NCBI RefSeq assembly: GCF_014640255.1
Contig: NZ_BMGP01000004.1
Coordinates: forward strand, 186,001 to 250,000
DNA length: 64,000 nucleotides
Origin: Subtercola lobariae
Lineage (GTDB): Bacteria > Actinomycetota > Actinomycetes > Actinomycetales > Microbacteriaceae
Direction: 5' to 3'
The notes under the pieces were generated by a model. It had not been told where the DNA came from. It made no database searches and saw nothing but the letters and a program-made list of their open reading frames with translations. How positions within the stretch are numbered: position 1 is the first letter of the stretch; each line of letters begins with the position of its first letter. The translations under genes and the position numbers were made by a program. Positions 4,344 through 46,491 of the stretch are shown in pieces.

Positions 4344-5801
4344 ATGTGCGGCATCGTTGGCATCGTTTCGTCTGAGCCCGTCAATCAACTCGTCTACGAC
4401 TCTTTGCTGTTGCTGCAGCACCGCGGCCAAGACTCCACGGGCATCGCGACCGCCGAGCGCGACATCTTCCACATCATCAAAGCCAAAGGCCATGTGCGCG
4501 AAGCCTTTCGAACGAGAGACATGCGCTCGCTTCTCGGAACAATGGGTCTCGGCCATGTGCGCTACGCCACCAAGGGCAACGCGTCGAGCGAGCAAGAGGC
4601 GCAGCCGTTCTATGTGAATGCGCCGTACGGCATCATCCTCGTGCACAACGGCAACCTCACCAATACCCGCGAACTGACGCAAGAACTGTTTCACATCGAC
4701 CGTCGGCACCTGAACACCGATTCAGACACCGAGCTGCTGCTGAACATCCTGGCCCACGAACTGCAAGAGCAGGTTTCGGGCCTCGACCTCGACCCCGAGC
4801 AGGTCTTCACTGCGGTCTCGCGGGTGCACCAGCGCGTGGAGGGTTCGTACGCCACCATCGCCATGATCGCCGGGCACGGGTTGCTCGCGTTCAGAGACCC
4901 GTGGGGAATCCGCCCGCTCACGCTCGGCAAGCGCACCCTCGAGTCGGGGCGCGACGAGTGGGTCGTGGCGAGCGAGTCGCTCGTCATGGAGTCGCTCGGC
5001 TACGAAGTCGTGCGCGATGTCGCTCCAGGCGAGGCCGTTTTCATCACGATGAATGGCGAAATGTACTCCAAGCAGTGCGCTCCGGATGCCCGGCTCGTGC
5101 CCTGCTCGTTCGAATTCGTTTATCTGGCCCGCCCCGACTCCGTGCTCTCGGGCATCTCGGTGTACGAGGCGCGCCTGCGTCTCGGCAACCGTCTCGCCGA
5201 CACTGTTGCGCAGTGGACCCCGTCGGGCGACATCGACGTGGTGATGCCCATCCCCGACAGCTCGCGCCCCGCGGCTATGCAGGTGGCGCAGAAGCTCGGC
5301 ATCGAGTACCGCGAAGGGTTCTACAAGAACCGCTACGTGGGCCGAACGTTCATCATGCCCGGCCAGGCCGTGCGCAAGAAGTCGGTGCGCCAGAAGCTGA
5401 ACGCCATGTCGACCGAGTTCAAGGGCAAGAACGTGCTCATCGTCGACGACTCGATCGTGCGCGGCACCACCTCGAAAGAGATCGTCGACATGGCGCGGCA
5501 GGCGGGTGCGAACAAGGTGACGTTCGCGTCGGCCGCACCACCTGTACGCTTTCCACACGTGTACGGCATCAACATGCCCTCACGCGACGAGCTCGTGGCT
5601 CACAACCGCAAGATTCCCGAGATCGCTGCCTATATGGGTGCCGACCACCTCATCTACCAAGAGGTCGCCGACATGGAGGCGGCGATCATCGAGGGCTCCT
5701 CTGTCGAGCACCTCGAAATGAGCTGCTTCACCGGCGACTACGTCACCGGCACCGTCAGCCCCGAGTACCTCGCCTGGGTAGAGCGCACCCAGAACTCCTG
5801 A
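4344..5801 (+). CDS. purF: Amidophosphoribosyltransferase, E. coli-like class
   Basis: This 485-residue enzyme catalyses the committed step of purine synthesis, transferring glutamine-derived ammonia to PRPP to give phosphoribosylamine. Residue 2 is the Ntn glutaminase nucleophile Cys (MCGIVGIVS), followed by LLLLQHRGQDSTGIA and HNGNLTN. The PRPP loop VLIVDDSIVRGTTS lies at about 363-376. The protein starts directly at the catalytic Cys, with no propeptide, and near the C-terminus has only SCFTGDYV rather than paired cysteines. It therefore looks like the E. coli type without an iron-sulfur cluster rather than the Bacillus/Mycobacterium type. A GGAG lies 11 nt before the ATG, a rather long spacing. 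Confidence 0.95.
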   Translation: MCGIVGIVSSEPVNQLVYDSLLLLQHRGQDSTGIATAERDIFHIIKAKGHVREAFRTRDMRSLLGTMGLGHVRYATKGNASSEQEAQPFYVNAPYGIILVHNGNLTNTRELTQELFHIDRRHLNTDSDTELLLNILAHELQEQVSGLDLDPEQVFTAVSRVHQRVEGSYATIAMIAGHGLLAFRDPWGIRPLTLGKRTLESGRDEWVVASESLVMESLGYEVVRDVAPGEAVFITMNGEMYSKQCAPDARLVPCSFEFVYLARPDSVLSGISVYEARLRLGNRLADTVAQWTPSGDIDVVMPIPDSSRPAAMQVAQKLGIEYREGFYKNRYVGRTFIMPGQAVRKKSVRQKLNAMSTEFKGKNVLIVDDSIVRGTTSKEIVDMARQAGANKVTFASAAPPVRFPHVYGINMPSRDELVAHNRKIPEIAAYMGADHLIYQEVADMEAAIIEGSSVEHLEMSCFTGDYVTGTVSPEYLAWVERTQNS

Positions 5802-5867
5802 CGCGATACCCCACCCCGGGCATCCGTAACCCGCATTCATCCCCGGCTTCGGCTCGCCTCGCGCCCA

Positions 5868-5927
5868 AACGAGAGGTCGAAATCTCTCCAACCTCCCGCC
5901 GTTTGGGAGAGATTTCGACCTCTCGTT
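5868..5927. terminator. Perfect 22-bp-arm inverted repeat, GAGAGGTCGAAATCTCTCC family, copy 1
   Basis: Arm 5868-5889 (core CGAGAGGTCGAAATCTCTCC) is the exact complement of 5906-5927, with a 16-nt loop. It lies between the convergent ends of purF and the luciferase-like gene and probably serves both as a terminator. A second copy with the same arm sequence is at about 20299-20376. Confidence 0.8.
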
Positions 5928-5967
5928 CGGCAAGCGGGGTGGGGGCAGGGGCGGGTGGATGCCCGAG

Positions 5968-7014
5968 TCAGGCGGTCGCGGAGGCGAAGTTCGGCGACCA
6001 GCCGAAGGCCGGGGCCACGTGCTCGGCGATGGTGGCGAGCAAGTGGGCGTTGTACTCCACGCCGAGCTGGTTAGGCACGGTGAGCAGCACGGTGTCGGCC
6101 GCCTGCACCGCGGCGTCGGCGGCGAGTTGAGCGGCTATCACGTCGGGCTCGCCCGTGTACGAGCGCCCGAAGCGGGCGAGGCCGCCGTCGAGGTAGCCGA
6201 CCTGGTCTGACGATTCCCCCGCGGCACCAGAGCCGAAGTAGCGGCGATCGAGGTCTGACGTGATGGGAATCACGCTGCGCGAGATCGAGACCCTCGGCTC
6301 ACGAGTGTGGCCAGCAGATGCCCATGCCGAGCGATAGAGCGCAATCTGCTCCGCCTGCAATTCATCGAACGGCACCCCGGTGTCTTCGGTGAGCAGCGTC
6401 GAACTCTGCAGGTTCATGCCCTGCTCCGCCGCCCAGACGGCCGTGGCGCGAGTGCCAGACCCCCACCAGATGCGGTCGCCGAGCGTCGCCGAACGAGGTT
6501 CGATGGCCAGCGTGCCGGCCGAACCCGTCATCTGCGGGTTGGCGTGGGCAACGTGCGCACCGGCGATGGCCGCCCGAAACAGCTCCGTGTGCGAGCGCGC
6601 GAGATCGGCATCCGTCTCGCCGTCAGCCGGAACATACCCGAACGACTCCGAGCCACGCAGCGCGGTCTCGGGTGACCCGCGGCTCACGCCGAGCTGCAGC
6701 CGCTCGCCGCTGATCAGATCGGCTGCCGCAGCCTCTTCGGCCATGTACAGCGGGTTCTCGTACCGCATATCGATCACGGCCGTGCCGAGTTCGATGCGCG
6801 AGGTGCGGGCGCCCATGGCGGCGAGCAGCGGAAACGGCGACGCCAGCTGCCTGGCGAAGTGGTGCACGCGTACATACGCCCCGTCGATGCCGAGCTCTTC
6901 GGCGGCCTCGGCCAGCTCGATGCTCTGAATGAGCGCATCTCGAGCCGTGCGCGCCTGCGATCCGGGCACGGGCTGATAGTGACCGAACGAGAGAAATCCG
7001 ATGCGCTTCTTCAT
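5968..7014 (-). CDS. LLM-class (luciferase-like) flavin-dependent oxidoreductase
   Basis: The 348-residue cytosolic protein has the bacterial luciferase-like TIM-barrel fold. It shows an N-terminal beta strand (RIGFLSFGHYQPV), HHFARQLASPFPLLAAMGARTSRIELGTAV at about 51-80, and ISGERLQLGVSRGSPE, which is typical of F420- or FMN-dependent monooxygenases. A C-terminal stretch (LLTVPNQLGVEYNAHLLATIAEHVAP) closes the barrel. The substrate is not determinable. The next gene on the same strand (an exporter, 70 bp upstream) could be co-transcribed. It converges on purF across a long hairpin. Confidence 0.88.
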   Translation of the reverse strand: MKKRIGFLSFGHYQPVPGSQARTARDALIQSIELAEAAEELGIDGAYVRVHHFARQLASPFPLLAAMGARTSRIELGTAVIDMRYENPLYMAEEAAAADLISGERLQLGVSRGSPETALRGSESFGYVPADGETDADLARSHTELFRAAIAGAHVAHANPQMTGSAGTLAIEPRSATLGDRIWWGSGTRATAVWAAEQGMNLQSSTLLTEDTGVPFDELQAEQIALYRSAWASAGHTREPRVSISRSVIPITSDLDRRYFGSGAAGESSDQVGYLDGGLARFGRSYTGEPDVIAAQLAADAAVQAADTVLLTVPNQLGVEYNAHLLATIAEHVAPAFGWSPNFASATA

Positions 7015-7083
7015 ACCCGGTACAGCGCCCTGAGCATCCTAGATATTCCCGCTTTCATGCATTCGTATGGATGCTGGCAGAGC

Positions 7084-8325
7084 TCACGCGAGTGTCGCCG
7101 TCGAGGTTGGCGTTGTAGCTCGGCTTCGACGCGGCAGACACAGCGCCAGCAGCACGAACCCCGCGATGGCGCACGCCACGTAGATATAGCCGAGCGGAGC
7201 CTGTGAGTCGTCGGGCAACCCTGCGGCGGCGCCCATGGCGACGGCCACGAAGAGGTAGCAGATGGCCGACGTGAGCCCGCCGATCAGGCCGAGGTTGCGC
7301 TCGAAGAGCCCCATGACGAGCCCGTAAGCCAGCGGGCATAGCGCCCCGCAGCCGGCGAGGGCGAGCACTCCGCCCACGGTGATCCACACCAGGTGCGGGC
7401 CGACGAGAGTGCCACTCAGGGCGAGCACCACCGCGCCGAGAGTGAACGAGGCGAGGGCGGCGAACCCGAGCATCCGCGACGAAATGCGTGTCGCGAAGAA
7501 GCTGGTCGACAGCTCGCCGATCAGGTTGGCGGCCCCCACGACGAGCGCAATGAGCCCGTAGAACGCGGGCGAGAGGCCGAGCTGCATCTCGTAGAGCAGG
7601 GGTGCCACGACGCCGAACATCAGCTGGGCGCTGGCGAACACCGCGAACATCAGCGTCAGGCCGATGAAGATGCGGCGGCGCAGGGTGGAGGCGAGCACCC
7701 CGCGAATCTCTCGGGGTCGAATGGGCGTTCGCCGGGCATCCGGCAGCGTCTCGGGCAGCAGAAAGAAGATGACAGCGGCCGCGAGCAGGGCGAGAACCGC
7801 GATCAGCACGAAGATTCCGCGCCACGAGACGAACTGCACGAGCAGGCCGCCCACGGCAGGGGCGAGCACGGGCGCGAGGCCCCACGAGGCGCCGAGCAGA
7901 CCCGAGAGGGAGGTGAGCCGCGCGCCCCGAAAGGAGTCGGCAGCGATGGCGTAAACGATGACCATGGTCGCGCATCCGCCGAGCCCCTGCACGAATCGCA
8001 GCACGAGAAGGGTGTAGATGTCGCCCGTGAGAGCGCAGCCGAGGCTAGCCACGAGCAGCACTCCGAGGCAGACGAGCAGCGTCGGTTTGCGCCCGCGAGC
8101 GTCGGCGATGATGCCGATCGGCAGCAGCCCGATGCTCATTCCGAGCACGTACGCCGACACCGAGTTCTGCACGAGCGTCGAGGTGGTGTGCAGCTCAGCG
8201 ATCATGTCGGGAATGGCCGGCGTGTACGCGTCGATGGGTATCTGGCTGAGCGGGATGATCGCCAGCAGAATCACCACGAGCATCCGCTGCCGCCCCGCCG
8301 GCCGCGCCACTGCCGCTTCGCTCAC
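7084..8325 (-). CDS. MFS exporter, Bcr/CflA-type drug efflux
   Basis: The product (413 residues from the chosen start) has about 12 membrane helices. It carries the Bcr/CflA-type signature IDAYTPAIPDMIAELHTT after helix 1 and the loop motif GIIADARGRKPTL between helices 2 and 3. RFVQGLGGCATMVIVYAIAAD matches the antiporter region. Such proteins export drugs or metabolites by proton antiport from the cytoplasmic membrane. I chose the GTG at 8325 because GGGGAGG sits 8 nt upstream; an in-frame GTG at 8346 would add seven residues with no better signal. It is divergent from the VOC gene, sharing a gap with a 12-bp palindrome. Confidence 0.85.
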   Translation of the reverse strand: MSEAAVARPAGRQRMLVVILLAIIPLSQIPIDAYTPAIPDMIAELHTTSTLVQNSVSAYVLGMSIGLLPIGIIADARGRKPTLLVCLGVLLVASLGCALTGDIYTLLVLRFVQGLGGCATMVIVYAIAADSFRGARLTSLSGLLGASWGLAPVLAPAVGGLLVQFVSWRGIFVLIAVLALLAAAVIFFLLPETLPDARRTPIRPREIRGVLASTLRRRIFIGLTLMFAVFASAQLMFGVVAPLLYEMQLGLSPAFYGLIALVVGAANLIGELSTSFFATRISSRMLGFAALASFTLGAVVLALSGTLVGPHLVWITVGGVLALAGCGALCPLAYGLVMGLFERNLGLIGGLTSAICYLFVAVAMGAAAGLPDDSQAPLGYIYVACAIAGFVLLALCLPRRSRATTPTSTATLA

Positions 8326-8391
8326 GTGAACATCCTCCCCTCGCACAGCATATGGGAAGCCCTACCGGGAATGCGCGCGGCCGATTTATAG

Positions 8392-8403
8392 TTGTAGCTA
8401 CAA
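8392..8403. promoter_or_regulatory. Perfect 12-bp palindrome overlapping the VOC gene start
   Basis: TTGTAGCTACAA is perfectly self-complementary and ends on the A of the ATG at 8403. A TATAGT-like -10 lies at about 8387-8392. No ribosome-binding site is visible, so the transcript may start very near the codon. A repressor here would block both initiation and translation. Reminiscent of MarR-type sites, but the regulator is not in the window. Confidence 0.5.
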
Positions 8404-9272
8404 TGAATACTTCGACTGAGCTGCTTCCGGCCGACGCTGGCATGGGTGCCGTGACCCTGCGCGTCGGCGACCTCTACGCCATGATTCGCTACTACCGCGA
8501 CGCCGTCACGCTCGAACTGCTGAGCCAGCACGGCGACGTCGCAGTGCTCGGCCGAGGCAGCACGGCGGTGCTTATTCTGCAGTCGGCCCCCGAGCTGAAA
8601 ACCCCCGAACCGCGGGCCGCCGGGCTCTATCACACGGCCATCCTCTTCGACTCGCGCGAAGCGCTCGCGGCCGCGCTCTACTCGGTCGCCACGAAGGCGC
8701 CCGGCACGTTCACGGGCAGCGCAGACCACAAGGTGAGCATCGCTTTCTACTTCACCGACCCCGAAGGCAACGGCGTCGAGCTCTACTGGGATCGCGACCG
8801 CACCGAATGGAGCTGGATTCACGGCCAGGTCGAGATGGCGACGCTCTCCATCGATCCGAACGAGTTCGTGAAGACGTACCTCACGCCAGAACTGATCGAG
8901 AGCCCGCGCGTCGGCCGGGCATCCGTTGGCCATGTGCACCTCTCGGTGGGCGATGTGCCGAGCGCAAAAGAGTTCTACGTGAAGCGTCTCGGTTTCGAGA
9001 CCACCGCGGAGTTCGGCGACAGCGCCCTCTTCGTGTCGGCCGGCAAATACCACCATCACATGGCCATGAACACCTGGCAAAGCGCGGGCGCAGGGCGGCG
9101 AAAGCTCGCGCTGGGGCTCGCCGAGGTCGACATCGTGGTGCCTGCTCCGGATGATCTGGGTGCACTCGAAGAGCGGCTCGCCCACTACGGCACTCCCTTC
9201 GCCAACGACGGGCAGAGCTTGCTCATCGAAGACCCCTGGGGCAGCGCCGTGAAGGTGCGAACTGCTGGCTGA
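8403..9272 (+). CDS. Two-domain VOC protein (extradiol dioxygenase/glyoxalase superfamily)
   Basis: The 289-residue cytosolic protein has two vicinal-oxygen-chelate modules, beginning at GAVTLRVGDLYAMIRYYRDAV (about residue 15) and VGHVHLSVGDVPSAKEFYVK (about 180). Candidate metal ligands are GLYHTAILF and GNGVELYWD in the first and GHVHLS in the second. The layout is that of CatE-like catechol-2,3-dioxygenase-family proteins, often linked to quinone or aromatic detoxification. Activity and substrate are not proven. The start at 8403 gives a possibly leaderless message with the palindrome at its 5' end. Confidence 0.8.
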   Translation: MNTSTELLPADAGMGAVTLRVGDLYAMIRYYRDAVTLELLSQHGDVAVLGRGSTAVLILQSAPELKTPEPRAAGLYHTAILFDSREALAAALYSVATKAPGTFTGSADHKVSIAFYFTDPEGNGVELYWDRDRTEWSWIHGQVEMATLSIDPNEFVKTYLTPELIESPRVGRASVGHVHLSVGDVPSAKEFYVKRLGFETTAEFGDSALFVSAGKYHHHMAMNTWQSAGAGRRKLALGLAEVDIVVPAPDDLGALEERLAHYGTPFANDGQSLLIEDPWGSAVKVRTAG

Positions 9273-9327
9273 ATTCGCTGTCAGTTCGGCCGAGTGGCGT
9301 AATAGATCGGCACGTTCGCACTCTCTA

Positions 9328-9372
9328 TGAGGTGAAGCCCGCAGCTCTGCGGGCCGATCAGACCTCAAGGAA
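9328..9372 (+). promoter_or_regulatory. Folded leader with ribosome-binding site before the glucoamylase gene
   Basis: TGAGGT (9328-9333) can pair with ACCTCA (9362-9367) around an inner stem GCCCGCAG/CTGCGGGC (9337-9344 with 9347-9354). The outer arm abuts the AAGGAA ribosome-binding site (9367-9372), so folding could affect translation of the gene at 9379. Structure only; no ligand or protein is known. Confidence 0.45.
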
Positions 9373-9378
9373 CAGTGA

Positions 9379-11991
9379 ATGCAACGACGCAATCTTTCTC
9401 CCTCTGGCGCCCGGCGAAAGCTGCCGCGCGCCGGGCACGGCTCGACGCCGCTCGATCGGGCCGGGCGTGCCCACGCCCGAGTCGGTCAGGCCGGGCATCC
9501 ACTCGGCCGACTCGGTCGAGCCACGCTCGTCGCCGCCGCGCTGACGGCGGTACTCGCGGCCCCGCTCTGCGCCGGGCAGATCGCTTCGGCGACGGCTTCG
9601 ACGCTGACGGATGCTCCCGCCACCCTTGCGGCGCCGGGAGGCCCGGGCATCACATCCACCTGGACGAGCGGCGACAAACTCGGGCTCGGCACCTCGTTCG
9701 CCGCAGACCCATCGACGTCGAAGTCGCACGTCTGGTACACCCTCGGCCCGGGCAAAATGACCGAGGTCTTCTATCCCACAGCCGACAGCCCGCAGACTCG
9801 TGACCTGCAATACGTCGTGACCGACAACAGCGGGTACACGAGTGTTGAAGAGACTGACACTACTCAGCAGGTCGTGCTCAGCGACAGCCAAGCGCTCGAG
9901 TACACCCAGATCGACACCGCCAAGAACGGTTCGTATCGCATCACGAAGAAGTACGTCACCGACCCCGACCGCTCCACCATGCTCATTGCGACGCACTTCG
10001 AGCAGCTCACCGGCACGACTCCGCTGCACCTGTACGCGCTCTACAACCCCTCGCTCGGCAACGCTGACGCCGACATTGCGAGTACGGTCGGTCACACCTT
10101 GGTGGCTAGCGGCGGCGGCGTGGCCAGTGCGCTCACCTCGTCGTTGCAGTTCACCACAACCACCAGTGGGTACAGCGGCGACGCGACCGATGGGTTCAGC
10201 CAGCTCACCACAAGCCACAAGCTGACCGGCGTCTATGACAGCGCTACGACGCCCGGAAACATCGTGCAGACCGCCGAGGTTCCGGTGGGCCGCGATACCA
10301 CCTTCATGCTCTCGCTCGGGTTCGGGGCATCCACTGCCGAAGCGCAGCTCAACTCGAACGCATCGATACTGGCCGGCTTCACCGACCGCGAAACCGCCTA
10401 CGTGGGCGGCTGGCACAGCTGGTTCACCACGCTGAAGGCCGCGCCGGCGAGCGTCGCGGGCACGCCCAAACTGCTCACGCAGTACGACGTGGCGCTGATG
10501 ACACTGCGGGCGCACGAAGACAAGACTCACCCGGGGGCGTTCGTGGCATCGCTTTCGACGCCGTGGGGCGAGGTGAGAACAGGCAATGCGCCGGGGTACC
10601 ACGCGGTCTGGGCGCGCGACCTCTACAACACCGCCACCGCGTTGAACGCTGCCGGCGACACACCGGCCGCCGTGCGAGCGCTGAACTACATTCTCGGCAC
10701 GCAAGAACGTTCCGACGGCAGTATTCCGCACAACTCGACCGTGAACGGAGCCGGAATCGCGGGGCTCGACGGCCTCCAGTACGACGAGATCGCCGACCCG
10801 GCCATTCTCGCCGACCAGCTGGGCATAACGGATGCGGCGACGTGGGCGAAGGTCGAGCTCTCTGCCGACTACCTCGTTGCGCATGGCGTGAGCACTCCGC
10901 AAGAGCGCTGGGAAGAACAGGGCGGCTACTCGCCCGCCACGATCGCGGCCGAGATCGCCGGGCTCGTCTCGGCAGCAGACATCGCCACGAAGAACGGCGA
11001 CACCGCGCGGGCCACGAGCTACCTCGCCACCGCAGACAACTGGCAGGCGAGCGTGGAGTCGTGGACGGTCACGCACACCGGCGACATCTCGACCGCGCAC
11101 TACGAACGCATCAACCACAATGGCACGCCCGACGAGAACCAAATCCTGACCGACTCCAACGGCTGGTTGAAGCTCGATGCTCGCGATGAGATCGATCCGA
11201 GTTTTCTCGAGCTGACGCGCCTCGGAGTGAAGCCGGCGAATGACGCCGTGATCGGCGCATCCGTTGGCGTGGTCGACTCTGTGCTCAAGTCAGACACGCC
11301 CGCTGGCCCGATGTGGCACCGCTACAGCGAAGACGGCTACGGCGAAAAGGCTGACGGAACGCCGTTCAACAACTCAGACCCGGGTACGATCGGGCGCGCT
11401 TGGCCCGTGCTCACGGGTGAACGGGGGGAGTACGAGCTCGCGAACGGCAACGTGGCGAACGCGCAGACCGACCTGGCCGCGATGGCTGCGAGTGCGAACG
11501 CCGCGTACATGATTCCGGAGCAGGTGTGGGACACCACGAGCATCCCGGGCTTCACCGACGGTCAGGCCACGAACTCGGCCGCGCCGCTCGCCTGGGCTGA
11601 CGCGCAGTACGTACGTCTCGCGCTGTCGATCAGTGCGCCGCGGGCGGCAGGTACGCCGGCCAACGTCGAAACGCCCAAGATCGTGGCCGACCGGTACGCG
11701 AACCAGGTCAACGTCACCCTCACCGAGAACGCCAGCACCAGCTGGGGCGACACGGTCTACGTGGTGGGCGCGAGCGCGGCACTCGGCAGCTGGAAGACCG
11801 ACAAGGCCATTCGCCTGTCGTCGGCGACGTACCCGAACTGGTCGGTTCGGGTCTCGCTGCCCGCGGGTTCGGCCATCGAGTACAAGTTCTTCACGAAGGC
11901 GGCCGACGGCTCCATCCACTGGCAGCTGCCCGGCAACACGACGCACACGCTGCCCGCCGGCGGTGACGTTACCTACACCGGCACCTTCTAG
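9379..11991 (+). CDS. Secreted GH15 glucoamylase/glucodextranase with C-terminal CBM20
   Basis: The 870-residue protein has a long basic N-terminus and a hydrophobic signal helix (about 45-70). A glucodextranase-type N domain follows (about 85-325). The GH15 (alpha/alpha)6 catalytic domain (about 335-750) shows TPWGEVRTGNAPGYHAVWARDLYNTATAL and QYDEIADPAILADQL, the latter matching the region of a catalytic acid. Residues 774-870 form a CBM20 starch-binding module (VYVVGASAALGSWKTDKAIRLS...). It likely releases glucose from starch-like alpha-glucans outside the cell. The ATG follows AAGGAA at good spacing. No other starch genes are nearby. Glucoamylase versus glucodextranase cannot be settled by eye. 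Confidence 0.9.
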   Translation: MQRRNLSPSGARRKLPRAGHGSTPLDRAGRAHARVGQAGHPLGRLGRATLVAAALTAVLAAPLCAGQIASATASTLTDAPATLAAPGGPGITSTWTSGDKLGLGTSFAADPSTSKSHVWYTLGPGKMTEVFYPTADSPQTRDLQYVVTDNSGYTSVEETDTTQQVVLSDSQALEYTQIDTAKNGSYRITKKYVTDPDRSTMLIATHFEQLTGTTPLHLYALYNPSLGNADADIASTVGHTLVASGGGVASALTSSLQFTTTTSGYSGDATDGFSQLTTSHKLTGVYDSATTPGNIVQTAEVPVGRDTTFMLSLGFGASTAEAQLNSNASILAGFTDRETAYVGGWHSWFTTLKAAPASVAGTPKLLTQYDVALMTLRAHEDKTHPGAFVASLSTPWGEVRTGNAPGYHAVWARDLYNTATALNAAGDTPAAVRALNYILGTQERSDGSIPHNSTVNGAGIAGLDGLQYDEIADPAILADQLGITDAATWAKVELSADYLVAHGVSTPQERWEEQGGYSPATIAAEIAGLVSAADIATKNGDTARATSYLATADNWQASVESWTVTHTGDISTAHYERINHNGTPDENQILTDSNGWLKLDARDEIDPSFLELTRLGVKPANDAVIGASVGVVDSVLKSDTPAGPMWHRYSEDGYGEKADGTPFNNSDPGTIGRAWPVLTGERGEYELANGNVANAQTDLAAMAASANAAYMIPEQVWDTTSIPGFTDGQATNSAAPLAWADAQYVRLALSISAPRAAGTPANVETPKIVADRYANQVNVTLTENASTSWGDTVYVVGASAALGSWKTDKAIRLSSATYPNWSVRVSLPAGSAIEYKFFTKAADGSIHWQLPGNTTHTLPAGGDVTYTGTF

Positions 11992-36218: not shown

Positions 36219-36356
36219 GTGGGTGCGGACCTGGCGCCACTCGAGGGCATCAGGCATCGAGAGCCAACCGACCGCGAGGCATTTGCAGACATCACAAGAG
36301 TGAATGCTCGAGCCACGGTCGCTGATGTGCTCGATGAACTTCGCGGTGATCGATGA
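36219..36356 (+). pseudogene. Truncated antitoxin (Phd/VapB-like C-terminus)
   Basis: A 45-codon frame ends ADITRVNARATVADVLDELRGDR and overlaps the PIN toxin start by ATGA (36353-36356). That ending fits actinobacterial Phd-type antitoxins partnered with PIN toxins. The normal N-terminal DNA-binding half (about 30-40 residues) is missing; the frame upstream runs into the zinc-ribbon gene with no relation to Phd. It appears 5'-truncated, though a short functional form from GTG 36219 cannot be ruled out. Confidence 0.6.
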
Positions 36357-36751
36357 TCTGTTACCTCGACACGTCTGCGGCAGGCAAATTGCTCGTCACT
36401 GAACCCGAGAGCGATGCCCTCGTTCGACATCTCGATCAGTTCGGGCATCGGCGCGGCTCGGTGATTGCATCGAGCACGCTGCTTGAAACGGAACTCAGGC
36501 GAATGGCTTCGCGGCTCGGATTTACACAAGCCGCAGTGTCAGGGCTGCTTCGCAAACTCAGCGTCATCGACATCGAGCGAGACGTTTTTCGCGAGGCGGG
36601 CCTGATGCTGCCAGGCGGCTCGCTTCGCAGCCTCGACGCGCCTCACATCGCCACCGCCGAGCGAATTGCCGCAGACGAATTCATTTCGTACGACGAGCGG
36701 CAAGCTCAATCTGCTGCGGAAGTCGGTTTGCGAGTAACGCAGCCCGCATGA
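36353..36751 (+). CDS. PIN-domain ribonuclease toxin (VapC-like)
   Basis: The 132-residue protein starts MICYLDTSAAGKLLVTEPES, with Asp6 as the first metal ligand. Further acids follow in ASSTLLETELRR, SLDAPHIATAERI and DEFISYDERQ, the four-acid PIN active site. Such toxins cleave tRNA or rRNA. ATG at 36353 overlaps the remnant antitoxin stop by 4 nt. With the antitoxin apparently damaged, the toxin may be weak, silent or neutralised by another protein; its catalytic residues look intact. Confidence 0.88.
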   Translation: MICYLDTSAAGKLLVTEPESDALVRHLDQFGHRRGSVIASSTLLETELRRMASRLGFTQAAVSGLLRKLSVIDIERDVFREAGLMLPGGSLRSLDAPHIATAERIAADEFISYDERQAQSAAEVGLRVTQPA

Positions 36752-36754
36752 CTG

Positions 36755-36784
36755 AATAACTTGCACAGCGGTGTGCAAGTTATT
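36755..36784. promoter_or_regulatory. Perfect 13-4-13 palindrome upstream of tetR
   Basis: AATAACTTGCACA (36755-36767) and TGTGCAAGTTATT (36772-36784) are exact complements around GCGG. TTGCAC inside it can serve as a -35. It ends 11 bp before the tetR GTG at 36796, in the position of a TetR autorepression operator. Confidence 0.75.
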
Positions 36785-36795
36785 AGAGTGGAGGG

Positions 36796-37452
36796 GTGAC
36801 CACATTTACCCCCTCGAAGCCGCCGCGACGCGACGCGACGGAGAACCGCGCCGCGATACTCGAGTCGGCACGCGTACTGCTGAATCGCGATCCTGAGGCG
36901 TCGCTTGAAGCCATCGCGGCCGGCGCGGGGCTCTCACGCCGCTCGATCTATGGGCATTTCGCCACCCGCGACGAACTCGTCAGCGAGATTCAGACGCTCG
37001 GCGGTCAGCGAGTCACCGCAGCTCTCGCCCACATCGACCACGCCGACTCCCGCGTGGCCATTGCGCTCATCGGCGCCAGGCTGTGGTCTGAGGTCGAAAA
37101 CGTGCGCGTGATGGCCCAGCTCGCCGTGCGCGGCCCGCAACGCCGAGACTTCGCCAACACGTTGCGCCCGGTGCGCGAAAAGCTGCTCGCCATCGTGGAG
37201 CGCGGCATTGCCGCTCGAGAACTCCGCACCGACGTTGCCGCCGAAACTCTCGCCAACCTCATCGAAGGCGCCGCTCTTTCAGTGCTCGACGAAGCCATTC
37301 GAGCTGATCTTTCGAATCGTGAGGGCCACCGGTTGGTGATGCTCGCAGCGCTCGGCACGGTAGGGCTCTCGTGGCACGAGTCGAACGCCGTGATCAAGCA
37401 CCACGCCGAACTTGAGTTCGCTGAACGCGTTACCGACGAGGAGACGAAATGA
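36796..37452 (+). CDS. TetR-family regulator
   Basis: The 218-residue protein has the TetR DNA-binding part at 15-62 (ENRAAILESARVLLNRDPEASLEAIAAGAGLSRRSIYGHFATRDELVSEI) and a helical ligand-binding half. GTG 36796 follows GGAGGG. Its TGA overlaps the next ATG by 4 nt, so it is co-translated with the ABC-like and YhgE-like genes, which it probably represses through the palindrome upstream. Ligand unknown. Confidence 0.88.
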   Translation: MTTFTPSKPPRRDATENRAAILESARVLLNRDPEASLEAIAAGAGLSRRSIYGHFATRDELVSEIQTLGGQRVTAALAHIDHADSRVAIALIGARLWSEVENVRVMAQLAVRGPQRRDFANTLRPVREKLLAIVERGIAARELRTDVAAETLANLIEGAALSVLDEAIRADLSNREGHRLVMLAALGTVGLSWHESNAVIKHHAELEFAERVTDEETK

Positions 37453-38300
37453 AGGTCATCCTGAGCAGCGTTTCGAAGGGCGAGAACGGCGAGAACCTGC
37501 CGGCGACCTCGCTGAGCTACGAGTCGGGGGCCGTGACGCTCGCGGTCGTCGAAACGGCTAAACGCCCCACGGTTCTCGCCCTGATGGCGGCGGGTCGCAT
37601 GGTTCCGGATGCCGGCACCATCACCTTCGACGACCGAACCGACCCTGCTGCGTTGCGTGAGCGTTCGGCCATCGTCGATGCGCCCGACGTCAGTGAGCCC
37701 GTTGATGACCTGAAACTTACCGCCGTGGTGCAAGAGGAGTTGATGTTCGCCGAGCGATCCAACTCGCGCCGCGATGCCCTCAACGCGCTCGACGAGCTGG
37801 ATGCCGGGCAGTACGCCGGGTATGAGATGCAGAACGTTCCGCCTGTTGTGCGGCTGCGCATTCTCGCCGAGCTCGCGGTTTCGCGGCCCGGCATCGAGGC
37901 CGTGGTTCTGACCTCGCCCGATCGGCACGGCGGTGACCCGCTCGGCTGGTGGGCGGTAGCAGCCGACTTGGCCGAGCGCGGGCTCGCGGTGCTCGTCATC
38001 GCCTCTGAGGCCTCGATCGATGCGGTGCGCGAGATCGCGTCACGCTTCGAAACCGACCGTCTCGCAGAACTCGAACGCCAGGCTGCCGCGCGTCGCCGCG
38101 AAGAAGCGGAAGCGGCTGCAGCTGCCAACGCTGCTGCAGATGCACAAGACGAACACCCCCATCCCCACGCCGTTCCCCTTGCCCACCCCGACAACGCGGT
38201 CATCGGCGCGGGCAGCCCACCGACCAGCACCAGCACCGCCCCCAGCACCACCCACACCCCCGCGCACACAACACCCGCGCCCCCGAAGGATCACGCATGA
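37449..38300 (+). CDS. ABC-ATPase-like protein lacking Walker A, with low-complexity tail
   Basis: The 283-residue product follows the outline of an ABC ATP-binding subunit: VLALMAAGRMVPDAGTITFDD resembles the post-Walker-A segment LxGLxxPDxGTITFDG. QNVPPVVRLRILAELAVSRPGIEAVVLTSPDRHGGDPLGWWAVAADLAERGLAVLVI resembles signature through switch regions. There is no GxxGxGKS/T loop and no normal signature or DE pair, so ATP hydrolysis is unlikely. The last 75 residues are an Ala/Glu helix followed by a Pro/His/Thr-rich stretch. It overlaps tetR and the YhgE-like gene by ATGA at both ends. Confidence 0.65.
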   Translation: MKVILSSVSKGENGENLPATSLSYESGAVTLAVVETAKRPTVLALMAAGRMVPDAGTITFDDRTDPAALRERSAIVDAPDVSEPVDDLKLTAVVQEELMFAERSNSRRDALNALDELDAGQYAGYEMQNVPPVVRLRILAELAVSRPGIEAVVLTSPDRHGGDPLGWWAVAADLAERGLAVLVIASEASIDAVREIASRFETDRLAELERQAAARRREEAEAAAAANAAADAQDEHPHPHAVPLAHPDNAVIGAGSPPTSTSTAPSTTHTPAHTTPAPPKDHA

Positions 38301-40360
38301 AAATCGTGACGCTCGTCACCCAAGAGTTTCGCCGCCTCACCGCCACCAGCCTCGCCCGCCTCGCGCTCGTGGCGCTGATGCTCGTTCCCGTCATCTACGC
38401 GGGCCTCTACCTCTGGGCGAACAGCGACCCCTACGGCAACGTGAAGAACATCCCCGTCGCCCTGGTGGTTGAAGATACCGGCGCCACCGTCAACGGATCG
38501 CCCGTCAACTATGGCCAACAGGTTCACGACCAGCTGCTGAAAGACGGCAGCGTGAAGTGGATGGATGCGACGCCCGACCAGGCCGCCAGCGGCATCAAAG
38601 ACGGAACCTACGACTTCATCTTGACGCTCGGCCCCGACTTCTCCACGATGCTCACGTCTGCTGGCACAGCAACCCCGCAACAGGCCGTCGTGCAGCTCAC
38701 GACCAACGACACGAACAGCTTCTTGGCCAGCACAATCGCCGCGACGGTCGCCGAGAAGGTGCGCCTCAGCATCTCGCAGCAGGTCGGCGAAGCCGCAGCG
38801 CTGCAGTTCTTGAACGGATTCGCCACCATTCACACGAACGTCAGTACCGCGGCCGACGGTGCCACGCAATTGGCCGACGGCACCGCCCAGGCCGAGGCCG
38901 GGGCATCCACTCTCGCCAGCGGAGCAGCGCAAGCCAACTCGGGAGCGGCAGATCTGGCGAACGGTTCTGCCTCGGCGGCGAGCGGAGCATCCACTCTCTC
39001 GAACGGGGCGAGGCAGACGAATGACGGCGCCGAGCAGCTCGCGAGTGGCCTCGACACGCTGGCTGCCAAATCGGCCACCCTGCCGGCAGACACGGCGAAG
39101 CTCAACACCGGCGCGCAGGCGGTTGCCGGCGGCAACGCCCAGCTCTCGGCCGCGGCCACGCAGGCTGCTTCGGTGGCTCAGGATGCCGCTGACCAAGTGG
39201 CTCCGGCGCGAGCTCAGATCGTGCAAGACCTCACCGACCTCGGCCTGACGCCCGATCAGCAAGCGCCCATTCTGGCCAAACTCGACACGGTCGGAACCGC
39301 CATATCGAACGGCAACGACCAGATTCAGGGCGTCAACACGCAGGTGGCCAAGCTATCGACTGGCGCCGCGCAGGTCGCCGCCGGCACCCAGCAGCTCGCC
39401 GACAACGCGCCCGCCCTGACATCTGGCATCAACCAGGCCGACTCCGGCGCGCACCAGGTGGCGAGCGGAACACAGCAACTGGCCGACGGCGCAGCGAGCC
39501 TCGCCGATGGAACACAGCAGGTCGCCGACGGAGCGGCAACCCTCAAGACCGCAACGCAGCAACTCGCCGACGGCAGCGCCACACTCGCCAGCGGCGCCAC
39601 AACGCTGAACTCGGGTGCCGATCAGTTGCGCGATGGGCTGGTTTCGGGGCTGGCGCAGATTCCGAACTATACCGGTGATCAGGCTCAAGCCGCGGCGGCC
39701 GTCATCGCGACGCCCGCGCGGGTCGACACCGATTCGGTCACGAAAGCAACGACGTATGGGGCCGGAATGGCGCCGTTCTTCATCAGCCTCGCCGCCTGGA
39801 TCGGCATCTACGCGCTGTTCTTGATCATCAAGCCGCTCTCGAAGCGCGCGCTGACCGCGATGAAAACCCCGCTCAAGGTTGCTCTGGCGGGCTGGCTGGC
39901 CCCGGCCATCCTGGGCGCCCTGCAGATGGTCGCGGTGTACCTCGTCGTGACGCTCGCCCTCGGTTTCGGGGTCGCGAATGTGCCCGGCATGCTCGCCTTC
40001 ATGATTCTCACCTCGGTGACGTTCGCGGCGATCATTCTCGCGCTCAACGTGTGGCTCGGCAGCGTGGGGCAGTTCATCGGGCTGGTGCTGATGGTGGTGC
40101 AGCTGGTCACGGCAGGCGGAACGTTCCCGTGGCAGACGCTGCCCGGGCCACTTGCCGCGCTGCATCACGCGCTGCCGATGTCATATGCCGTCGACGGAAT
40201 ACGTCAGTTGATGTACGGCGGCGACATGATGCTGGCGCTCAACGACGCCGGGGTGCTGGCGATCTGGCTGCTCGCGGCGGGTGCGTTCACGTATTTCCTC
40301 GCAACCCGAGCGACCCGCGCGCGAACCCTACGCGACCTGCGCCCCTCCCTCATCGGCTGA
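38297..40360 (+). CDS. YhgE/Pip-family membrane protein
   Basis: The 687-residue protein has one N-terminal membrane helix (about 20-42, LARLALVALMLVPVIYAGLYLWANSDPYG), a large outside region and five C-terminal helices (about 495-670). The outside part (180-460) carries many degenerate 7- to 11-residue repeats of the form ADGAxxLASGA, coiled-coil-like as in YhgE/Pip and type VII EsaA/YueB proteins. NIPVALVVEDTGATVNG is the family's N-terminal motif. These act as phage receptors in Firmicutes or in export; here the role is unknown. The preceding pseudo-ABC and tetR genes form one unit. Confidence 0.88.
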   Translation: MKIVTLVTQEFRRLTATSLARLALVALMLVPVIYAGLYLWANSDPYGNVKNIPVALVVEDTGATVNGSPVNYGQQVHDQLLKDGSVKWMDATPDQAASGIKDGTYDFILTLGPDFSTMLTSAGTATPQQAVVQLTTNDTNSFLASTIAATVAEKVRLSISQQVGEAAALQFLNGFATIHTNVSTAADGATQLADGTAQAEAGASTLASGAAQANSGAADLANGSASAASGASTLSNGARQTNDGAEQLASGLDTLAAKSATLPADTAKLNTGAQAVAGGNAQLSAAATQAASVAQDAADQVAPARAQIVQDLTDLGLTPDQQAPILAKLDTVGTAISNGNDQIQGVNTQVAKLSTGAAQVAAGTQQLADNAPALTSGINQADSGAHQVASGTQQLADGAASLADGTQQVADGAATLKTATQQLADGSATLASGATTLNSGADQLRDGLVSGLAQIPNYTGDQAQAAAAVIATPARVDTDSVTKATTYGAGMAPFFISLAAWIGIYALFLIIKPLSKRALTAMKTPLKVALAGWLAPAILGALQMVAVYLVVTLALGFGVANVPGMLAFMILTSVTFAAIILALNVWLGSVGQFIGLVLMVVQLVTAGGTFPWQTLPGPLAALHHALPMSYAVDGIRQLMYGGDMMLALNDAGVLAIWLLAAGAFTYFLATRATRARTLRDLRPSLIG

Positions 40361-40511: not shown

Positions 40512-42161
40512 TTACTGCACGGTGAGCTGGATGGTGTGCAGGCCCGTGGAGCCTGAAGGGGCGGGGGGCGCCTCGTCTGAGGTCTGGGTGTAACCGGAGG
40601 TGTCGGTGGCGCGCACGGCGATGACGTGGTTGCCGCTCGTAGCCTGCCAGGGCAGCACCCACTGGCGCCAGGTGTCGGCCGAGATGGCATCGGCGAGGGT
40701 CGCTTCGACCCACGGCCCGTTGTCGACCTGCACTTCGACCTTCGCGATGCCCGTGTGCTGAGCCCAGGCGACGCCAGCGATCGGGATGGTTCCGGCGGCG
40801 AGACCCGCGTTGTTCTTCGGGGTATCGATGCGCGATGAGGTCTTGATCGGGCCGAGAGCCGTCCAGCCGCGCGGAGTCCAGTAGCCCATGTCTTGAGCGA
40901 ACGTGGTGACCTTCATCTCGACCACCCATTTCGTGGCCGAGACGTAGCCGTAGAGCCCGGGCACGACCATGCGCACGGGAAAACCGTGTTCGACGGGCAG
41001 CGGAGCCCCGTTCATCCCGACAGCCAACAACGACTGCCGGTCGGTGTCTTGCAGCACCTCGAGCGGCGAGCCTGCAGTAAACCCGTCTGAGCTCTTCGAC
41101 AGCACCATATCGGCGCCGGCCGTGGGCTTGGCCCGGGTCAGCAGATCACGAATGGGGTAGCCGAGCCAGGTGGCGTTGCCGATGAGGTCGCCGCCCACCT
41201 CGTTCGAGACGCAGGTGAGCGTGATGGTGTCTTCGACCAGCGGCAGCGCGAGCAGGTCGGCGAACGAAATCTCGACCTCGTTCTCGACCATGCCGTAGAT
41301 TCTGAGCTTCCACGAATCGGGATTCAGCTGCGGAACCTGCAACGCCGTGTCGATGCGGTAGAAGTCGCCGGCCGGCGTGATGACGGGGCTGATTCCGCTG
41401 ATGCCGAGCTCTGCACCGCTCGGGATGACCGGGGCCGCCGTCGAAGGCGCGGGCAGCACCAGCGCGTTGCGGGCGCTCGTCACGGCGGCGGCCGTGGCAT
41501 TCATCAGCCGCGCGCCCGCCCCGACCACCGCGGATGCGGCGGCCGCCACGATCACGAACGTCAAGAACTGGCGCCGCTCATACGAAGCGGGGCCGGTGCG
41601 CACGGTCGGGGCCGGCGTCGAGGGCGCACTCGTCGCGGGCCCGACGTTCGCCGCCACCGGAGTGCTCACTCCGCTCGCGATCACTGCGGCCGCGGCTTCG
41701 GCACGTTTACGGATGCCCGCTTCGCGCGAATCCCAGCGTTTCAAGCGCTGCTGCAAGGCACGCAGAACGAACACCCCGACGAGCATTCCCACAACTGTAG
41801 GTATCGCCGAGAATCCGGATGCCCCATCTCGCGTCGTCACGGCGACCACCGCGATGGCAGAGAACACCACGAGCACCACGATGCCCCAAGGCGGCCGGTG
41901 GTATTCGAGCAACCCCGCGATGCACGCGCCGGCCACCACGATGATGCCGAGCAACGTGAGCAGCGCGGCCTTGTCGCCCGTGCCGAACAACGAGATCATG
42001 ACGTCTTTGACGCCCGGCGGGGCCAGGTCGATCATCAGCGAACCGACGGAGAAAAGCGGGCTGGCCTCGGCGCTGATGAATACGGCCACCAACTCGGCCG
42101 AGGCAAGAACGGTTGCCGCAGCGACCACACCCGTCAGGGCCGCCCACACGTTGCGTCGCAT
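40512..42161 (-). CDS. Membrane-anchored sulfite-oxidase-like molybdopterin oxidoreductase
   Basis: The 549-residue protein has four or five N-terminal membrane helices (about 7-137), a linker, one more helix (about 203-225) and an outside molybdopterin domain (about 255-430). The molybdenum-ligand Cys is near residue 316 in TITLTCVSNEVGGDLIGNATWLG, followed by GFPVRMVVPGLYGYVSATKWVVEM. An Ig-like dimerisation domain ends the protein (VDNGPWVEATL...). This is the actinobacterial membrane sulfite oxidase-family form. Substrate unproven; sulfite is the family default. It is the last gene behind an ABC import operon. Confidence 0.9.
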   Translation of the reverse strand: MRRNVWAALTGVVAAATVLASAELVAVFISAEASPLFSVGSLMIDLAPPGVKDVMISLFGTGDKAALLTLLGIIVVAGACIAGLLEYHRPPWGIVVLVVFSAIAVVAVTTRDGASGFSAIPTVVGMLVGVFVLRALQQRLKRWDSREAGIRKRAEAAAAVIASGVSTPVAANVGPATSAPSTPAPTVRTGPASYERRQFLTFVIVAAAASAVVGAGARLMNATAAAVTSARNALVLPAPSTAAPVIPSGAELGISGISPVITPAGDFYRIDTALQVPQLNPDSWKLRIYGMVENEVEISFADLLALPLVEDTITLTCVSNEVGGDLIGNATWLGYPIRDLLTRAKPTAGADMVLSKSSDGFTAGSPLEVLQDTDRQSLLAVGMNGAPLPVEHGFPVRMVVPGLYGYVSATKWVVEMKVTTFAQDMGYWTPRGWTALGPIKTSSRIDTPKNNAGLAAGTIPIAGVAWAQHTGIAKVEVQVDNGPWVEATLADAISADTWRQWVLPWQATSGNHVIAVRATDTSGYTQTSDEAPPAPSGSTGLHTIQLTVQ

Positions 42162-44213: not shown

Positions 44214-45050
44214 TCACGAGGAGCTCACCCCGGCCGACTGCAGCTTCGAGCGGATCAGGTCTTGGTAGTCGTGCAACACCTTTGCCTCGACCAGCCCGTG
44301 TCGGCGCGGGCGCGGCACGTCAATCGGCACCACCGCGGCGATGCGGCCCGGCCGCGGCGACATCACCACCACCGTGTCTGAGAGCACCACGGCCTCAGAA
44401 ACCGAATGTGTCACGAACACCACCGTGGTCACGAGCTTCTGCCAGAGCTTCAGAAGCTGGTCTTGGGTGGCCTCGCGGGTGAATTCGTCGAGGGCCGAGA
44501 AGGGTTCGTCCATCAGCAGAACGTCGGCCTGGGTCGCGAAGGCGCGGGCGATCGCCACGCGCTGCTGCATTCCGCCTGAGAGTTGGTGCGGCAGGGCACG
44601 CACGGAGTCGGCGAGGCCGAGCTCGGTGAGCAGAGCGACCGGGTCTGCCGTGCCAGGGGGCCGGTGGCCGGGCAGTTCGCGCCGCCGGGCATCCGCTCGC
44701 CGGTTGACCTTCAGCGGAATTCGCACGTTCTCGAGCACGCTGAGCCACGGCAACAGGGCTGGCACCTGCGGCATGAAGCCGATCATCTTGGCGGCCGATG
44801 CCTCGGCGGGCGTGCTGCCGAAGATGCTGACCGAGCCGGTATCGGGATGCTCGAGGCCGGCCATCAGCCGCAACAACGTCGACTTGCCGCACCCACTCGG
44901 CCCGATGATGCTGACAAATTGGCCGCGATTCATGCTGAAGTCGACATCGGCGAGCGCCGGCCGCTGTGCCCCTGGGCGCCCGTACGACTTGGCTGCGCCT
45001 GACACCACCAGGCGGTCGTCTGAGCCCGGAGCGTCGATTTCGGTCACCAT
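44214..45050 (-). CDS. ABC-transporter ATP-binding protein (SsuB/TauB-like)
   Basis: The 278-residue subunit has Walker A IIGPSGCGKSTLLRLMAG (about 57-74), Q-loop MIGFMPQVPALLPWLSVLENVRIP, signature LSGGMQQRVAIARAFA and Walker B ADVLLMDEPFSALDEFTRE with H-loop VVFVTHSVSEAV. This layout is that of sulfonate/nitrate/taurine importers. An insert (NRRADARRRELPGHRPPGTADP) before the signature is longer than usual. ATG at 45050 lies 4 bp after the MFS pump stop, so the pump and importer genes may share a transcript. Confidence 0.92.
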   Translation of the reverse strand: MVTEIDAPGSDDRLVVSGAAKSYGRPGAQRPALADVDFSMNRGQFVSIIGPSGCGKSTLLRLMAGLEHPDTGSVSIFGSTPAEASAAKMIGFMPQVPALLPWLSVLENVRIPLKVNRRADARRRELPGHRPPGTADPVALLTELGLADSVRALPHQLSGGMQQRVAIARAFATQADVLLMDEPFSALDEFTREATQDQLLKLWQKLVTTVVFVTHSVSEAVVLSDTVVVMSPRPGRIAAVVPIDVPRPRRHGLVEAKVLHDYQDLIRSKLQSAGVSSS

Positions 45051-45054
45051 TCGA

Positions 45055-46491
45055 CTATACGGCGGGCCTCGCCGGCCGAATGTTCTCGCCCGCGCTGCGG
45101 CTGAGGCGCAGAGCCTCGAGGGTCGACAGCAGTGTGAGCGCGCCGATGACCACGAAACTGAATTGGAACGCGCTGAGACCCACTGCTTCACCTGCGCCGG
45201 CCGCGCCCGTTGCTGCTTCTCCGGCGCGCAACGCGATCGCGCCGATCGCCACGCCGAACCCAGCTGCCACCTGCTGCAACGTCGAGGCGAACGTGTTCGC
45301 ATCGGTCATCTTGGTCTGGGGGATGTCAGCGAATGCGATGGTGTTGTAGGCCGTGAAGCCGGTGGAGCGCATGACTCCACTGAAGATCAGCAGAATCGCC
45401 ACCAGCACAACAGGGGTGTCGACGGTCAGAAACGCGCAGAGCACCATGCTGAGAGCGGCTCCCGCGGTTGCCGCGACGATGACCGTTCGAAAGCCGAACC
45501 GCCGAAGCAGCGGCGTGGTAAACGGTTTGATGCCGATATTGCCGACGAAAACGAACAACACCAACGTTCCTGCGACCACGGGCGTGTAACCGAATGAGTC
45601 TTGAAAGAGCAACGGCAGCAAGAACGGAACGGCGCTGATGGTCATCCTGAACACCGAACCGCCGACGTGCGCCAGCCGAAACGTTTCGACTCGCAAGTTG
45701 CTCAGTCTGAGCAGTGGATGCTCGGCCCGCAGAAAATGCCAGGTTGCGACCCCGAGCAGGCCGAGCCCCACCGCCGCGAGCACCAGAAGTTCGAGCAGGT
45801 TCTGGTCGTTGCCGGCCAGCAGTGAACCGAGGTAGACGAGCACGCCGAGGCCCACGCCGGTGAGCACGAGGCCCAGCCAGTCGAGCGCCGGAGGGCTCAG
45901 GTGCCCTTCGCGCGGCACGATGCGCAGAGCCACCACGAACGCGATTACGCCGAGCGGCACGTTGATCAGAAAGATCCAGTGCCACGAGGCGTAGGTCGTC
46001 AAGATTCCGCCGACCAAGGGCGCGATCACGGGGGCGGCGAGCGCCGGCCAGGTCAGCAGCGCAACGGTTCGAATCAGGTCGGCTTTGCTTGTGACGCGCA
46101 ACACGGCGAGTCGGCCGACCGGAACCATCAGCGCACCGCCCACGCCCTGCAGCACCCGAAAAACGGTGAGCTCGGTGAGATTCTGGCTGAGCGCGCACAG
46201 AATCGACGCGATGGTGAAGATGGCGATGGCGGTGAGAAAGATGCGGCGTGCGCCGAACCGCTGGGTCAGCCAGCCGCTCAACGGAATGAGCACGGCGAGC
46301 GTCAGCAGATAGGCCGTGATTGCGACGCCCACGCTGAGCGACGCGACGCCAAAAGCGTTGCCGATGCTGGGTGCCGCGGTAGTCAGAATGGTGCCGTCGA
46401 GGTTCTCCATGAAGAAGGTGCCGGCCACGAGCAGGGCGATGTTGCGTTGGCGATGTGGATGCTCGTGCGCTGGCACTTCGGATTCACTCAC
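45055..46491 (-). CDS. DHA2-family MFS exporter
   Basis: The 478-residue protein has about 14 membrane helices, with FFMENLDGTILTTAAPSIG in helix 1 (the D-G-T-I-x-T-A-x-P DHA2 motif), SGWLTQRFGARRIFL (motif A) and FRVLQGVGGALMVPVGRL. It likely extrudes drugs or metabolites. GTG at 46491 directly abuts the SMR gene stop (46492), and the ABC ATPase gene starts 4 bp after its own stop. Confidence 0.88.
   Translation of the reverse strand: MSESEVPAHEHPHRQRNIALLVAGTFFMENLDGTILTTAAPSIGNAFGVASLSVGVAITAYLLTLAVLIPLSGWLTQRFGARRIFLTAIAIFTIASILCALSQNLTELTVFRVLQGVGGALMVPVGRLAVLRVTSKADLIRTVALLTWPALAAPVIAPLVGGILTTYASWHWIFLINVPLGVIAFVVALRIVPREGHLSPPALDWLGLVLTGVGLGVLVYLGSLLAGNDQNLLELLVLAAVGLGLLGVATWHFLRAEHPLLRLSNLRVETFRLAHVGGSVFRMTISAVPFLLPLLFQDSFGYTPVVAGTLVLFVFVGNIGIKPFTTPLLRRFGFRTVIVAATAGAALSMVLCAFLTVDTPVVLVAILLIFSGVMRSTGFTAYNTIAFADIPQTKMTDANTFASTLQQVAAGFGVAIGAIALRAGEAATGAAGAGEAVGLSAFQFSFVVIGALTLLSTLEALRLSRSAGENIRPARPAV

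Follow-up and report, generated by a model that had tools for sequence, protein, structure and literature searches.

An operon of Subtercola lobariae that probably pairs the membrane protein YhgE with an ABC-related protein devoid of ATP motifs

According to the available sections of a transporter survey, the homologues of YhgE include proteins of the ABC-2 superfamily (PMC3924187), and the accessible part of a second report treats the task of the YhgE domain as open (PMC4999554). YueB, a distant relative of PIP, interacts with YukC, a pseudokinase that does not bind ATP (PMC9600267). No title or abstract opening among the literature matches listed mentions a partner of YhgE resembling an ATP-binding cassette (ABC) protein. 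Here we describe an operon of the actinomycete Subtercola lobariae (family Microbacteriaceae) that encodes a TetR-family regulator, a relative of the ABC nucleotide-binding domains (hereafter the middle protein), and a YhgE membrane protein. It lies in a window of 64,000 nucleotides (assembly GCF_014640255.1, contig NZ_BMGP01000004.1, positions 186,001 to 250,000), for which an initial annotation had been made from the sequence alone. On balance, we think it probable that this operon provides YhgE with a dedicated pseudo-ATPase, which would dock on the ABC-2-like YhgE as a scaffold or regulator, under the control of the linked TetR.

The three genes had been taken for one tightly coupled unit, and this holds well: the tetR-middle and middle-yhgE junctions are each a 4-base ATGA overlap, a palindrome lies in front, and the gene order is kept across loci (Table 1). 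Relatives of the middle protein occur in 11 of 12 genomes searched within the genus and in at least 189 of 398 searched within the family, with six candidates scored per genome in the latter; the nearest named relative, from a Subtercola metagenome-assembled genome, is 81% identical across residues 1-218. From the better matches, at about one to two per genus, we picked 70 Microbacteriaceae loci (the window and 69 others), excluding duplicates, short overlapping loci, and loci with a second YhgE. In 69 of these, a yhgE gene follows downstream on the same strand, and the sole exception, L038, stops at a contig end; the initial annotation had made its proposal depend on this pair being kept among homologues, as it is here. 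The middle-yhgE junction allows a 4-base overlap in 63 of 68 loci (L038 and L072 left out) and the tetR-middle junction in 46 of 58 (L072 left out). With tblastn, an orthologue of tetR was detected at 59 of the 70 loci; among the other 11, two have a TetR gene of another type nearby on the opposite strand, three have a more distant TetR-type gene, and six have no match to the TetR profile. An apparent fusion of the middle protein to YhgE (L072) was not used, its reading frame passing through N letters. Judged by gene order, the partnership of the middle protein with YhgE is well supported.

Table 1. Positions in the window of the operon, its palindrome, and the discussed parts of the middle protein
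Feature	Position	Strand	Description
Palindrome, putative TetR operator	36755-36784		Perfect 13-4-13, AATAACTTGCACA-gcgg-TGTGCAAGTTATT
Palindrome core	36761-36778		TTGCACA-N4-TGTGCAA; 18 bases, 14 of them fixed
tetR	36796-37452	+	GTG start, 218 residues; TetR-family regulator, PF00440 (TetR_N) 33.5 bits (cut-off 24)
Middle gene, pseudo-ABC protein	37449-38300	+	ATG start, 283 residues; relative of ABC nucleotide-binding domains, no ATP motifs
Walker A position	37548-37571	+	Here VETAKRPT, residues 34-41; ET-x-x-RP in 58/70
Walker B and D-loop position	37899-37940	+	Here AVVLTSPDRHGGDP, residues 151-164; P-[DE]-R-[HR]-G-[GS] in 70/70
Variable C-terminal tail	38028-38297	+	His/Pro/Thr-rich at end; length and make-up differ among homologues
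yhgE	38297-40360	+	ATG start, 687 residues; YhgE/Pip membrane protein, ABC-2-like membrane domain, xxxLxxG heptads

The middle protein had been described as lacking the Walker A and signature motifs, and the lack of both proved general. None of the 70 Microbacteriaceae proteins has a Walker A motif within its first 215 residues, and the SGG of LSGGQ is absent from residues 101-170 in all 70; in the wider alignment presented below, none of the 20 rows from Microbacteriaceae has the Walker B Asp or the catalytic Glu, against 10 of 10 true ABC controls for each. A frameshift hiding a Walker A motif, raised at the outset as a possible flaw, can be discarded because no Walker A pattern occurs in any of the six frames of positions 37401-38350 of the window (GxxxxGK[ST] forward, the same pattern in reverse) and no [LI]SGG in the three forward frames. 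Without these motifs, the protein cannot be an ordinary ABC ATPase. Because the ratio of nonsynonymous to synonymous substitution rates (dN/dS) of its core is 0.026-0.281 in 21 close pairs, some of which share members, we conclude that the middle gene is under purifying selection and is kept rather than decaying. The tail has a higher dN/dS than the core in 20 of the 21 pairs. The His/Pro/Thr-rich tail noted earlier is present in the window protein, but it is not a constant of the family: homologues are 195-395 residues long, with tails of about 2-200 residues past residue 193 (not counting L038, which its contig end truncates, and L072, whose frame passes through N letters).

The residues that replace the ATP motifs are themselves conserved. 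Across 67 sequences, eleven columns show no variation, including P40, G49, R50, G56, D77, E96, R135, P157, R159, and G161, and several of these substitutes stand at or near the places of the motifs. Such conservation would fit a nucleotide site rebuilt for another ligand, in which the ET-x-x-RP and P-[DE]-R-H-G-G loops line a pocket that accepts a metabolite or a lipid head group and the protein acts as a sensor gating YhgE. We regard this explanation as rather unlikely, given that neither Pfam nor NCBIfam recognizes a ligand-binding family in the protein and that the conserved residues could equally belong to a protein interface or to the core. The loss of catalytic residues could also mark the inactive member of a mixed pair, the partner being an active ABC ATPase encoded elsewhere and YhgE being a working ABC exporter. 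ABC transporters commonly have a degenerate site next to an active one, and the second half of NupO of Bacillus subtilis is described, in the text available, as devoid of the Walker A Lys, the Walker B Asp, and the Glu (PMC11466899). The window genome has 108 ABC_tran matches, one of which lies in the window, in another gene group (44214-45302). However, the operon contains no second ATPase gene and the two halves would need to be encoded separately, which makes a mixed pair improbable in our view.

Profile comparisons indicate that the middle protein descends from ABC nucleotide-binding domains, in line with the ABC outline recognized in it initially. With hhalign, a 69-row profile of the core matched 16 true ABC domains of the window genome at 96.4% (residues 3-136) and the YhgE-paired ABC-like proteins of another actinobacterial family, f5, at 97.5% (residues 12-195), and the latter matched ABC domains at 99.8%. 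Ten controls with reversed profiles (five targets for each of the stand-alone and MMPL-fused families, the second of which is presented below) did not exceed 6.1%. Other searches gave fainter signals: the window protein matches none of the Pfam ABC models, 3 of 67 members match NCBIfam ABC models such as cbiO weakly (E up to 0.01), and a profile search of PDB returned weak ABC matches, the best of which (E 0.045) ranked under a chance match to a leucine-rich repeat (E 0.0071).

Relatives elsewhere in the Actinomycetota retain the motifs to different degrees. In a set of 396 genomes of the phylum, YhgE is present in 77 at E 1e-10, and the profile of the middle protein matched 15, six of which are of the same family and two of which were reached through true ABC proteins only. 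We examined 40 chosen YhgE regions and ten around profile matches, and we aligned 52 proteins, namely, 20 of the 70 from Microbacteriaceae and 32 others. One upstream open reading frame with a weak profile match (18.4 bits) was left out, and one protein with no profile match was included for its position and its GPSGSGRT motif. As true ABC controls, 20 regions yielded 16 domains past a motif filter, ten of which entered the tree. Three large proteins matched by the profile turned out to be true ABC proteins with intact motifs and were excluded from the family; in these, a stretch that looks FHA-like by eye precedes the ABC motifs.

Among the 52 rows, the catalytic Glu and LSGGQ are absent from all (four MMPL-fused rows being gapped at the signature) and the Walker A Lys is present in five; each is present in all ten controls, by construction for Walker A and the signature, since the filter requires Walker A and SGG. 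The Walker B Asp is found in 20 rows, comprising all nine of family f5, all four of family f26, L130, five of six MMPL-fused proteins, and one other. At the Walker A position, the YhgE neighbours of f26 have an intact GRNGSGKT (4/4), those of f5 have GPSG[ST]GRT with Arg in place of Lys (9/9), and the nine of f6 vary, for example, GSGGRGRT and MPGGHSQK; three rows from other families of the order read GDRQDQRT, GDPGPALT, and GDPGPGHV, and the Microbacteriaceae are of the ET-x-x-RP type. In Pfam scans of ten such proteins, ABC_tran was over its cut-off in six (at the C-terminus in L130) and absent in four. Two public plasmid records, from Arthrobacter and Rhodococcus, hold relatives placed before YhgE that are annotated as ATP binding yet have no Walker A. 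Pairing with YhgE persists where the ATP motifs are missing. In f5 and f26, the end of a TetR-type open reading frame lies 3' of yhgE on the same strand (9/9 and 4/4 loci), so that the gene order there differs from that of the window. The tree separates the 52 rows from the ten controls with 100/100 support, several inner branches being weak, and parsimony requires at least two changes of the Walker Lys; the H-loop column, gapped in many rows, was not used.

A second architecture occurs in the same genome, outside the window, where a TetR gene, a gene for an MMPL protein of 1044 residues, and a second yhgE occupy positions 5767-11640 of locus L040, on the minus strand. The last two genes overlap by 4 bases, and the MMPL protein ends in an ABC-like domain that has no Walker A. 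The same layout recurs at five further loci of the family (L138-L142), with the MMPL identity checked against Pfam in one (L141) and judged by sequence in the others; all of the five except L141 lack the segment around the signature. In L130, of family f8, MMPL is fused to an ABC-like domain with an intact Walker A (ABC_tran, 57 bits), and hhalign connects the MMPL-fused domains of the family with this L130 domain at 98.5% and with the stand-alone proteins at 84%. These domains form two groups in the best tree; an approximately unbiased (AU) test does not reject a single clade of them (p 0.34). In its MMPL fusion, the L040 gene row gives a hint of a proton-driven partner of the resistance-nodulation-division (RND) type. 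As a tentative scenario, one that we would not hold with confidence, the partnered YhgE proteins of Actinomycetota may derive from ABC exporters in which the motor gave up hydrolysis ancestrally and ATP binding later, perhaps repeatedly, while its fold was kept as an ATP-free subunit; one branch would have become joined to a proton-driven MMPL pump and so to another source of energy.

The last protein of the operon belongs to the YhgE family over the cut-offs of both domain models (TIGR03061, E 2.9e-49, 166.9 bits, cut-off 96.15; TIGR03062, E 3.5e-60, 203.2 bits, cut-off 102.2) and of ABC2_membrane_3 (76.8 bits, cut-off 31.6). It had been described earlier as EsaA/YhgE-like; the EsaA model TIGR03929 scores 56.2 bits against a cut-off of 122. 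The "dozens" of ADGAxxLASGA repeats were an overstatement: we counted 20 heptads of the form xxx[LIVM]xxG, with first residues in the range 189-445 and two of the heptads overlapping, and TIGR03057 passes in eight stretches. PIP and YueB, firmicute relatives of YhgE, serve phages during infection, as stated in the available parts of two reports (PMC4999554; PMC9600267), and the trio could by analogy be a phage receptor or defence unit. The use of a surface protein by a phage tells little of the protein's own task, however, and we give this idea next to no weight.

Several observations weigh against a pseudo-ATPase of ABC descent partnered with YhgE. Compared directly with true ABC domains, the profile matches over the first two thirds only, ABC_tran matches none of 67 members at E 0.1, and Resolvase gives a weak match in 13 of the 67 (best E 0.0053; that of the window protein is below the cut-off). 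Two AlphaFold models of the middle protein, from two sequences, are both poor, with predicted local distance difference test (pLDDT) values of 46.6 and 45.6, so that the ABC fold rests on sequence profiles. Foldseek with the second model placed ABC chains in 16 of the first 17 rows, the other being labelled only as a membrane protein complex; nothing reached E 0.001 (best E 0.12, template modelling scores mostly 0.2-0.3), and we do not count these rows as proof since none is significant. At eight loci with tandem YhgE, the open reading frames directly upstream have no match to the middle-protein profile, and YhgE can evidently do without a partner, since some of its genes have no profile-matching neighbour. 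We also dropped the conservation of a putative coupling loop of YhgE, which is similar in two YhgE proteins without a recognized partner. The missing ABC_tran match, the Resolvase signal, and the poor models would suit another alpha/beta fold with a chance resemblance to ABC domains. Such a coincidence appears very improbable beside hhalign values of 96-97% against at most 6.1% for the reversed controls, and beside the chain that runs through relatives over the Pfam cut-off at the same position before YhgE.

The perfect 13-4-13 palindrome reported ahead of tetR is present, and its core proved to be a property of the whole tetR-bearing group. Within about 200 bases upstream of tetR, all 58 other loci with this gene have the core at two or fewer mismatches of 14 (none in 40, one in 15, two in 3), compared with a best of three mismatches, reached three times, in 1160 letter-shuffled upstream stretches. 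At the 11 loci that lack the tetR orthologue, no site comes within two mismatches of the core, and 51 further loci (more distant, MMPL type, or unrelated) contain one site with two mismatches, at L127, which carries tandem YhgE, and none closer. Because the core accompanies tetR in 58 of 58 loci and is found in 0 of 11 without it, the palindrome is almost certainly the operator of the linked TetR. The exact 18-base core occurs once in the window genome, at this palindrome, and sites at two or fewer mismatches number seven, against two for a control pattern; with a single exact site and few near matches, the regulator most likely controls only the present operon. Just 5' of the palindrome ends a gene for a VapC-like PIN-domain protein (36353-36751, plus strand; PF01850, 40 bits), and no clear antitoxin gene for it was found among the short open reading frames preceding it. 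On the other side, convergent to yhgE, 40512-42161 (minus strand) encodes what we take to be a molybdopterin-oxidoreductase-like protein.

Gene order, homology, the absence of the motifs, selection, and the conserved palindrome are all read from sequence, and on them we build the following model of the pseudo-ATPase and its YhgE. TetR would bind the palindrome before its own gene and repress the operon until a ligand releases it, whereupon the middle protein and YhgE would be made together. YhgE is a membrane protein of the ABC-2 type, with one helix, a large outside part bearing the heptads, and several further helices. Because YhgE matches the ABC-2 membrane family, we place the middle protein on its cytoplasmic face, at the site where an ABC exporter carries its motor; there it may hold or regulate YhgE without using ATP, and any transport would be powered by something other than an ATP-splitting middle protein. 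Conserved in several families of the phylum, the partner provides a handle on the task of the YhgE domain. Furthermore, since this partner resembles an ABC domain without ATP motifs and intermediate stages exist in living relatives, the order in which the motor was lost can be tested.

Compared with the YhgE/Pip family at large (TIGR03061, TIGR03062), the present YhgE has both models over cut-off with heptads between them, and it differs in its link to a motor-like partner that has no ATP motifs. MMPL transporters (PF03176) enter the comparison through other loci, where an MMPL protein before YhgE carries a similar ABC-like domain as a fusion, whereas the tetR-middle-yhgE operon has no MMPL gene. 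To the ABC nucleotide-binding domains (PF00005), the middle protein is related by profile-profile comparison, and it departs from them in lacking Walker A, LSGGQ, the Walker B Asp, and the catalytic Glu. Transporters with degenerate sites, such as NupO in the available description (PMC11466899), likewise retain a motor domain without catalytic residues, but theirs adjoins an active half and none is encoded in the present operon. The EsaA/YueB and EssB/YukC proteins of type VIIb secretion differ in the fold of the pseudo-enzyme and in the EsaA model, which stays below its cut-off here; what they share with this operon, as far as the accessible text describes them, is the combination of a YhgE-related protein with a pseudo-enzyme that does not bind ATP (PMC9600267).

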